A stretch of DNA of 64,000 nt from Mangrovimonas xylaniphaga (lineage in GTDB: Bacteria; Bacteroidota; Bacteroidia; Flavobacteriales; Flavobacteriaceae), in contig NZ_LBIP01000013.1 in the NCBI RefSeq assembly GCF_001280435.1, forward strand, positions 372,001 through 436,000, in the 5' to 3' direction. The notes under the pieces were generated by a model. It saw only the letters and a program-made list of their open reading frames with translations, did no database searches and was not told where the DNA came from. This document shows positions 26,015 through 28,201 of this stretch, one piece after another (position 1 is the stretch's first letter; every line of letters begins with the position of its first letter). The position numbers and the translations under genes were made by a program.

Positions 26015-27007
26015 TTAGTCTTTATCTAATTTGTATTTGCTCAAATCCATTCCGAAACTTAATCCCTTAACGATTACAAGTTCTTCCAACTCTGTTAAGG
26101 ACTTTTTACCGAAGTTTCTGAATTTCATCAAATCGTTCTTATTAAAAGAAACCAAATCTCCCAATGTGTCTACTTCAGCCGCTTTCAAACAGTTCAATGC
26201 TCTTACAGAAAGGTCCATGTCAACCAATTTGGTCTTCAATAACTGTCTCATGTGAAGTGATTCTTCATCATAAGTTTCTGTTTGTGCAATTTCATCCGCT
26301 TCAAGGGTAATGCGCTCGTCAGAGAACAACATGAAGTGGTGAATAAGGATTTTAGCAGCTTCTGTTAAAGCATCTTTTGGGTGTATTGACCCATCTGTAA
26401 TGATTTCGAAAACCAATTTCTCGTAATCGGTCTTTTGCTCAACACGATAGTTTTCAATACTATACTTCACATTTTTTATTGGCGTATAAATTGAATCGGT
26501 AAATATAGTACCAATTGGAGCAGAAGCTTTTTTGTTTTCCTCAGCAGGCACATATCCTCTACCTTTTTCAATAGTAATTTCCATGTTGATGTTCACCTTT
26601 GGATCCAAGTTACAGATCACAAGATCTTTGTTCAACACTTGGAAACCAGAAATGAACTTTTGAAAATCACCTGCTGTGATTTGCTCTTGTCCAGAAATAG
26701 AAATAGAAACAGATTCGTTATCGATTTCATCAATTTGGCGCTTGAAGCGAACCTGCTTTAAGTTCAAAATAATTTCTGTAACATCTTCCACTACTCCTGC
26801 AATGGTAGAAAACTCGTGATCCACGGTTTCTATTTTAACAGATGTAATGGCAAATCCTTCCAAAGAAGATAATAACACTCGTCTTAAAGCGTTACCTACT
26901 GTCAATCCATATCCTGGTTCTAAAGGTCTAAATTCGAATTTACCTTCAAAATCAGTAGAATCAATCATGATTACTTTGTCAGGCTTCTGAAAATTTAATA
27001 TTGCCAT
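26015..27007 (-). CDS. rpoA: DNA-directed RNA polymerase subunit alpha
   Basis: A 330-residue alpha subunit. The N-terminal dimerisation and assembly domain (residues 1-235) has '[20 protein letters not shown]'. The C-terminal DNA-binding domain has '[23 protein letters not shown]' and '[23 protein letters not shown]'. Complete and of normal length. It follows rpsD by 23 bases and is probably driven by the promoter before rpsD as well as by upstream read-through. Confidence 0.98.
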
Positions 27008-27030: not shown

Positions 27031-27636
27031 TTATTTAGAGTATAATTCGACGATGAATTGCTCGTTGATATTTTCTGGAATTTGCACTCTTGCAGGAACT
27101 GAAACATAAGTTCCTTGCTTGGTTTCGCTATTCCAAGTAATCCACTCATAAACTTCACTAGAATTAGCCAATGAATTTAGAATGGTTTCTAAAGATTTTG
27201 ATTTTTCTCTTACTGCTACAACATCACCAGCTTTCAATTGGTAAGAAGGAACGTTTACGATTTCTCCGTTTACAGTAATGTGTCTGTGAGAAACCAATTG
27301 TCTAGCTCCACTACGAGAAGGGGCAATACCCATTCTGTAAACTACGTTGTCAAGTCTAGATTCACAAAGTTGTAACAATACTTCACCTGTAATTCCAGGA
27401 GCAGCAGTTGCTTTTTTGAACATGTTTCTGAATTGCTTTTCCAAAATACCGTAAGTGTATTTTGCTTTTTGCTTCTCCATCAATTGAACAGCATATTCAG
27501 ATTTTTTTCCACGACGCTTGTTGATACCGTGTTGACCTGGAGGATAGTTTCTTTTTTCAAAAGCCTTGTCATCTCCATAGATAGCTTCACCGAATTTACG
27601 GGCTATCTTAGTTTTAGGACCAGTATATCTTGCCAT
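27031..27636 (-). CDS. rpsD: 30S ribosomal protein S4
   Basis: A 201-residue S4, a primary 16S rRNA binder and in other bacteria an autoregulator of its operon. The N-terminal extension lacks cysteines, so this is the zinc-free form. The S4 RNA-binding domain starts near residue 92 ('[25 protein letters not shown]'). It is preceded by a 175-base spacer with a hairpin, a promoter and a folded leader, in contrast to its tightly packed neighbours. Confidence 0.97.
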
Positions 27637-27653
27637 TTGTTAAAATTAATTGT

Positions 27654-27710
27654 GGGAGTGTTTATGAATTAAGGTCTTATTCTTATCCTTCGATAAACAA
27701 TAACTCTCCC
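27654..27710 (-). promoter_or_regulatory. Folded leader upstream of rpsD, candidate S4 autoregulatory element
   Basis: On the minus strand GGGAG (27710-27706) pairs with CTCCC (27658-27654), and GTTTAT (27698-27693) with ATAAAC (27665-27660), with a 7-base and a 1-base internal loop. A smaller AAGG/CCTT stem (27690-27687 with 27674-27671) nests inside. The structure ends 17 bases before the rpsD ATG and lies inside the transcript expected from the promoter at 27742-27769. Confidence 0.55.
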
Positions 27711-27741
27711 GTTAATACTTGTTTATAAATTTTTCAGCTTG

Positions 27742-27769
27742 CAAATTTAACAGAAATAATTAATATCAA
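27742..27769 (-). promoter_or_regulatory. Internal promoter for rpsD-rpoA-rplQ
   Basis: On the minus strand -33 TTG (27769-27767), a 17-base spacer, and -7 TAAATTTG (27749-27742), a full fit to TTG-N17-TAnnTTTG. The predicted start near 27736 gives a leader of about 100 bases. The TTG lies in the stem of the neighbouring hairpin. Confidence 0.65.
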
Positions 27770-27795
27770 TTGTAAAAACAATTGATATTAATTAT
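27756..27795 (-). terminator. 17-bp hairpin after rpsK, possible terminator
   Basis: A perfect 17-bp AT-rich stem (27756-27772 with 27779-27795) with a 6-base loop, starting 16 bases after the rpsK stop. On the minus strand the flank TTTCTG has only a short T-run, so termination may be partial. Confidence 0.5.
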
Positions 27796-27811
27796 AAAAT
27801 TTCTGAATAAA

Positions 27812-28201
27812 TTATACTCTTCTTCTTTTTGGAGGTCTACATCCATTGTGTGGTAGTGGAGTAACATCGATAATTTCTGATACTTCGATACCTGAGTTAT
27901 GGATAGATCTAATAGCAGATTCTCTTCCGTTACCTGGTCCTTTTACATAAACCTTCACTTTTTTCAAACCTGCTTCTTTAGCTACACCTGCAGCATCCTC
28001 TGCAGCCAATTGCGCAGCATATGGCGTGTTCTTTTTAGAACCACGGAACCCCATTTTACCGGCAGATGACCATGCTATAACATCTCCTTTTTTGTTAGTC
28101 AAAGAGATGATGATATTGTTGAAAGAGGCCGCAATATGCGCTTCTCCAATAGAGTCAACAATTACTTTACGCTTTTTAATTTTAGTATTTGACTTTGCCA
28201 T
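27812..28201 (-). CDS. rpsK: 30S ribosomal protein S11
   Basis: A 129-residue S11 of the platform region near the Shine-Dalgarno helix. Signature runs are '[18 protein letters not shown]', '[17 protein letters not shown]' and the C-terminal '[18 protein letters not shown]'. It starts 11 bases after rpsM and is followed by the long structured spacer before rpsD. Confidence 0.98.

Follow-up and report, generated by a model that had tools for sequence, protein, structure and literature searches.

A member of the S4-Flavobacteria leader family and a predicted lineage-specific promoter in the rpsK-rpsD spacer of Mangrovimonas xylaniphaga

Introduction

What occupies the long gap between rpsK and rpsD in the ribosomal protein cluster of Mangrovimonas xylaniphaga, and how might it act on the genes that follow? 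In the stretch of DNA analysed here (64,000 nucleotides; the window), rpsK (27812-28201, minus strand) and rpsD (27031-27636, minus strand) were taken from the list of open reading frames, the latter encoding ribosomal protein S4 (201 amino acids, 86-94% identity to relatives), the presumed repressor and product of the first regulated gene. Named from sequence and place, rpoA (26015-27007, minus strand) and rplQ (L17; 25463-25945, minus strand) are the second and third genes of the presumed unit. The same order, rpsD-rpoA-rplQ, is listed as regulated by the S4-Flavobacteria leader in Table 1 of Eckert & Weinberg 2020 (PMC7247131).

The rpsK-rpsD spacer spans 175 bases (27637-27811, minus strand) and is unusually long for this stretch, since the neighbouring gaps measure only 23 bases (rpoA-rpsD) and 11 bases (rpsK to the next gene). 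The original prediction, made from the letters of the window, had remarked on this length among the gaps of the ribosomal cluster, as the coordinates bear out, and had read the spacer as a promoter of its own followed by a leader for S4.

Results

When the whole window was compared with 4227 Rfam models (cmscan), a set that may or may not include a Bacteroidia S4 leader, only one match rose above threshold: the S4-Flavobacteria ribosomal protein leader RF03141, at 27660-27698 on the minus strand (full model, positions 1-33; 48 bits against a gathering threshold of 35.2; E 1.1e-6 in 64 kb). The match sits immediately before rpsD-rpoA-rplQ, in the same orientation, and contains a helix that covaries in relatives. 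The spacer leader is an ordinary member of the published family, with modest refinements added here. The family comes from the work of Eckert & Weinberg 2020 (PMC7247131), whose Table 1 names S4 as ligand on the analogy of S4 ligands already known (“Prior”), and whose account of the motifs finds no meaningful similarity of the Flavobacteria and Bacteroidia S4 motifs to each other, to other S4 leaders or to rRNA. An own promoter plus S4 leader is the best reading of the spacer. The original prediction had mentioned a leader class proposed for Bacteroidia; the class matched is S4-Flavobacteria, which is listed separately from the Bacteroidia one.

RF03141 matched once in the genome itself, in all three genomes of the genus, in 308 of 397 genomes of the family (296 over the cut-off) and in 31 of 395 genomes of a class-wide sample, and in none of 14 control genomes. 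The frequency of RF03141 is to be read from the family and class genome samples, loci L001-L059 of our comparison having been collected through RF03141 matches.

In order of transcription, the spacer comprises an 18-bp hairpin, the promoter TTG-N17-TAAATTTG, a 5' segment containing AAGUAU, the leader, and the AUG of rpsD (27636). The leader stems of the original prediction, GGGAG/CTCCC, GTTTAT/ATAAAC and a nested AAGG/CCTT, were all located in the sequence, and all coordinates that follow are on the minus strand. The outer helix, P1, pairs GGGAG (27706-27710) with CUCCC (27654-27658) outside the 33-position Rfam model. It is joined to helix P2 (GTTTAT/ATAAAC, 27693-27698 with 27660-27665) by a one-sided internal loop, AGUUAUU (27699-27705), seen in the sequence and fold, whose opposite side is the single A27659, able to pair with U27699. 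Within P2, the Rfam alignment places an asymmetric loop in which C27692 faces AAUU (27667-27670), a G27691-C27666 pair adjoining the core, and the core stem AAGG/CCUU (27687-27690 with 27671-27674), closed by a variable apical loop of 12 bases (27675-27686). In one relative, L159, a separate small hairpin seems by eye to be inserted in this loop, suggesting that recognition can do without the loop. An A/U-rich stretch of 17 nt without a Shine-Dalgarno sequence (27637-27653) leads from P1 to the AUG.

Folded as a single sequence, the leader reached -14.6 kcal/mol (z -1.34), a value equalled by 18 of 200 shuffles; its lowest-energy fold has the two outer stems, with the core paired otherwise than AAGG/CCTT. 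This is only mildly better than shuffled sequence, and the reality of the leader was decided by comparison, through the Rfam match and covariation. The comparison drew on the spacers of 139 loci together with that of the window. L097, truncated 8 nt short of rpsD, and the window copy (identical to L001) were excluded, which left 138 usable; similarity thinning left 52 of these 138 loci for an alignment with MAFFT.

The outer helix was examined by exchanging flanks between loci (22 bases before P2 against 12 after). Among 64 loci with distinct 3' flanks, own flanks paired at -8.05 kcal/mol as against -3.81 (sd 0.23) for swapped ones, a difference matched in 0 of 2000 permutations; when all 125 distinct flank pairs were taken, the energies were -7.96 for own and -4.20 for swapped flanks (0/2000), and a control flank further upstream showed no excess for the own locus (1993/2000 permutations as good). 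In the 52-locus MAFFT alignment, two-sided changes were found in 5/5 P1 pairs and 6/7 P2 pairs, including the G-C adjoining the core, and the covariation score was 0.321 against 0.142, reached by none of 500 shuffles. The bare count of pairs with two-sided changes was reached by 10 of 500 shuffles on the MAFFT alignment and by 95 of 500 on a model-fitted alignment, which was built on our extended model, R1, and hence leans towards the structure; the support for P2 consists of pair counts on these two alignments. Compensatory changes in the stems among relatives, whose lack had been set beforehand as grounds for rejecting the leader, were found both in the flank swap and in the covariation score.

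RNAalifold applied to the 52-locus MAFFT alignment predicted P2 and the core only, not P1. Pairing holds for 69% of the P1 cells there, and the register of P1 differs by one base between lineages. In four loci (L004, L027, L029 and L033) P1 is of -3.0 kcal/mol or weaker. From these sequence comparisons we regard P1, absent from the Rfam model, as a supported part of the leader; it may already be drawn in the figures or supplement of PMC7247131.

The extended model R1 (70 positions) matched 331 of 395 family genomes, as compared with 308 of 397 for RF03141 in a nearly identical sample, a gain that is not fully independent since its training included four sequences read as divergent (L084, L090, L119 and L127). 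At least one Rfam-positive genome (G726) was not among the R1 matches. In the class sample R1 matched 31 of 395 genomes, the same number as RF03141, so the extended element reaches no further out there. Of the 89 Rfam-negative family genomes 20 were inspected; 17 gave rpsD and three had no rpsD match. With the cut-off at E 0.1, R1 recovered 12 of the 17 loci, including two weak matches (E 0.0015 and 0.012); in genome-wide searches at E up to 0.001 it matched 8 of the 20 genomes. By eye, 11 of these 12 loci carry CCUUAAUUU in place of CCUUAAUUC together with a P1-like outer pair.

These loci point to a divergent leader subtype that escapes the Rfam search. It mostly has CUAGAGG or CUAAAGG with CCUUAAUUUAG, and (A/G)AGG instead of CGAAGG, and comprises L084, L090, L119, L121, L123, L127 and L152-L162, including loci from Aequorivita (L084, L121, L123) and Ulvibacter (L119, L127); the genomes of L152-L162 are without an RF03141 match. 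No leader was seen in four of the 17 Rfam-negative loci (L164, L166, L167 and L170; spacers of 16-48 bases), and L165, with a 65-base spacer, has a degenerate core by eye. A scan with Rfam at the gathering threshold of 10 further rpsD loci (three Rfam-negative loci of the family, seven from outside it) gave no match.

Upstream of the leader, the TTG-N17-TAAATTTG promoter of the original prediction was found in the spacer, its -7 box (TAAATTTG) at 27742-27749 and its TTG, 17 bases away, at 27767-27769. We take this TTG to be an element of the -33 type, the upstream part of a Bacteroidota sigma-A promoter. The box corresponds to the TAnnTTTG consensus, placed at -12 to -5 by the Flavobacterium psychrophilum transcriptome (PMC9723704), the main text of which does not mention rpsD; from its position, transcription would start near 27737 (27736 in the original prediction). 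A generic sigma-70 scan, whose consensus differs from the TAnnTTTG type, did not list the spacer promoter. When loci were divided into long (at least 85 bases upstream of P2) and short (less), a TAnnTTTG box upstream of the leader occurred in 62 of 65 long loci and 0 of 73 short ones, with about 7.3 of 138 expected by shuffling; the shuffles for this box, as for the hairpin-folding, AAGUAU and 16S-word tests below, keep base composition only. Among 65 such boxes in these loci, 60 sit 45-60 bases before P2. The TTG is less conserved than the -7 box, being found 16-20 bases from it in 41 of the 62 promoter-bearing loci.

The hairpin at the end of rpsK (27756-27795) is also present as predicted, at a measured 18 bp instead of 17, with perfect arms (27778-27795 and 27756-27773) and a 4-base loop. 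It is followed by no clean T run and was not listed by the terminator scan of the window. In 60 of the 62 promoter-bearing loci, the stretch of at most 75 nt before the -7 box is more stably folded than its shuffles (z below -2), and 43 of the 62 have a T5 run. The TTG of the promoter lies inside the 3' arm of the hairpin, a terminator and a promoter thereby overlapping. In the lineage of the window, the rpsK transcript probably stops at a terminator, with a separate one beginning for rpsD-rpoA-rplQ. The predicted promoter box is specific to this lineage and is no general part of the leader system, because 73 of 138 loci are short and without a box, yet have the leader in the rpsK-rpsD spacer.

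The motif AAGUAU stands just 5' of P1 (27715-27720). Among the long loci 61 of 65 have it, and among the short ones 15 of 73, where shuffling expects 1.3 and 2.0, respectively; it occurs also in loci without the promoter box (e.g. L009, L105 and L122). No pairing partner was found for it. A pseudoknot between leader and start region, pairing AGUAU with AUACU at rpsD codons 4-5, was considered and is not supported: the swap test was flat (own -4.78, swapped -4.83 kcal/mol, 1448/2000 permutations as good), a test blind to conserved pairs that never vary. Across 139 rows, with the window beside L001, TATACT is present in 76 of the 77 rows with the motif, and 16 of the 92 TATACTGGT rows are without it.

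We also considered mimicry of 16S rRNA. The genome's own assembly (G000, 42 contigs) gave no 16S match, probably an assembly gap, and a genome of the same genus gave five, one of them partial; relatives' 16S was used because the own genome offered none. The longest word that the window leader has in common with a same-genus 16S (L145) measures 10 nt and joins the apical loop to the S4 region of that rRNA. It was rejected as chance: the apical loop is the least conserved part of the leader, and words of 10 nt or more arise in 95 of 2000 shuffled leaders. The longest word shared with 16S falls within the S4 region for 33 of the 138 loci. Core words such as GAAGGA and CCTTAATT are absent from the same-genus 16S, in a comparison of words by sequence only.

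Discussion

Taken as a whole, the analysis makes it probable that the spacer carries an RF03141-type S4 autoregulatory leader on the rpsD-rpoA-rplQ transcript, through which excess S4 would repress translation. In the lineage of the window, this transcript would start at its own promoter after the rpsK end hairpin, and the RNA would fold into P1, the one-sided internal loop, P2 and a near-invariant AGG/CCU core with the AAUU bulge. S4 exceeding the available 16S rRNA may bind this leader, and the hairpin so stabilised may hinder loading of the 30S subunit on a start region that lacks a Shine-Dalgarno sequence; less S4, and perhaps less alpha and L17, would be made. A different ligand, control of transcription and a ligand-free role in stability are each less likely than translational repression by S4. 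A literature search of titles and abstracts, in which few subscription papers were covered, returned no bench study, binding or expression data for this leader.

The leader might be a genuine structured RNA that answers to L17, alpha or another ribosomal protein, which we judge unlikely. The assignment to S4 was made by analogy (“Prior”, PMC7247131, Table 1), the Bacteroidia and Flavobacteria S4 motifs are described there as resembling neither each other nor rRNA, and the leader core is without a match to 16S rRNA; against this, rpsD follows directly downstream at a near-fixed distance, and uS4 regulates the alpha operon in Escherichia coli, as reported in PMC10931766.

That distance also bears on the level of control. 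Over the 138 loci, the end of P2 lies a median of 21 nt from the rpsD AUG (5-95% 20-25, range 14-41), and the part upstream of P2 measures 23-155 bases (5-95%; range 11-191). In the window, 17 nt separate the 3' foot of the leader hairpin from the AUG. Across the 138 loci G is nearly absent between positions -15 and -5, so the rpsD start is read as lacking a Shine-Dalgarno sequence. Bacteroidota mRNAs are described as being without such sequences, and in Flavobacterium johnsoniae base pairing is predicted to be reduced from -20 to +20, where structure accompanies lower translation, according to the findings cited from PMC6847099. Together with a scan of 27600-27850 that found no terminator-like site, the near-fixed AUG distance, the scarcity of G and the F. 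johnsoniae data lead us to infer control of translation, with the foot of the hairpin placed at the 5' edge of the region where initiation takes place.

Action of S4 on transcription instead, through a change in elongation or termination within the leader or the beginning of rpsD, seems improbable on these grounds. It could draw on the capacity of uS4 to act in antitermination, noted in PMC10931766, and on an alternative pairing in one clade, where the P1-forming strand can pair with an upstream segment (UUCAC/GUG). Many of L034-L059 have a UUCAC-type segment some 25-35 bases before P2. The own-versus-swapped signal for this pairing was weak in that clade (30/2000 permutations) and lacking in the clade of the window (1518/2000). 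A conserved alternative stem is not supported. The P1 strands of this analysis were chosen by their best own pairing and are thereby biased, the unbiased test of P1 being the flank swap.

Stable 5' hairpins can act as elements of mRNA stability or processing, and the leader might serve as such an element only, with no protein ligand, a reading we consider slightly more improbable still. Conservation within the leader speaks against it: three of the four AAGG/CCUU pairs never vary in the 52 thinned loci and AAUU shows little or no variation, while the surrounding helices P1 and P2 change, as would be expected where a protein recognises the RNA, and this suggests a sequence-specific partner. A competing hairpin, AUAAACAA/UUGUUUAU, switching against the leader in the genus of the window, is highly improbable: the window sequence does contain its 8 bp, but by eye it is confined to the genus, relatives with GATTAT in P2 being without the upstream complement, and the related test of the segment upstream of P1 against the P1 strand gave no signal in the clade of the window.

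This leader can be set beside several known systems. With the RF03141 model it shares the core hairpin, a position before rpsD-rpoA-rplQ and a score above the curated threshold; the model ends at P2, whereas P1, the 5' AAGUAU and a subtype missed by Rfam are added here. The Bacteroidia S4 r-leader is likewise a hairpin before rpsD-rpoA-rplQ with S4 as predicted ligand, but by its authors' description is without meaningful similarity (PMC7247131). The E. coli alpha-operon operator shares autogenous control by S4 around rpsD, rpoA and rplQ, predicted in the case of the window; it differs in being a pseudoknot over the rpsM ribosome binding site that traps the 30S subunit, as described in PMC10931766, whereas the window leader is a hairpin upstream of the start codon, and its leader-start pairing gave no own-versus-swapped signal. 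The S4 leaders of Firmicutes and Fusobacteria (GUAA) also have S4 as ligand, confirmed in the former and predicted in the latter, and imitate or probably imitate rRNA in the description of PMC7247131; the leader of the window does not.

More tentatively, and with rather less confidence than we place in repression by S4 itself, the flavobacterial S4 operator may be larger than the Rfam model, comprising P1, P2 and the near-invariant AGG/CCU and AAUU core, in at least two sequence subtypes and at a near-fixed spacing to the AUG, with S4 repressing a start that lacks a Shine-Dalgarno sequence by a clamp on the 5' edge of the region of initiation. Under this proposal AAGUAU would belong to the operator in part of the family only.

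The outer helix, the AUG spacing, the lineage-specific promoter, the missed subtype and the AAGUAU motif are refinements of a described family. The comparison supports a leader class that rests on prediction in the sources cited and gives it a testable anatomy, made up of the outer helix, a near-invariant core, the near-fixed distance to the AUG and the subtype that the Rfam model misses. Because Bacteroidota mRNAs are without Shine-Dalgarno sequences, an S4 operator bound by its spacing to the start codon would offer a handle on how translation of ribosomal proteins is repressed in these organisms.
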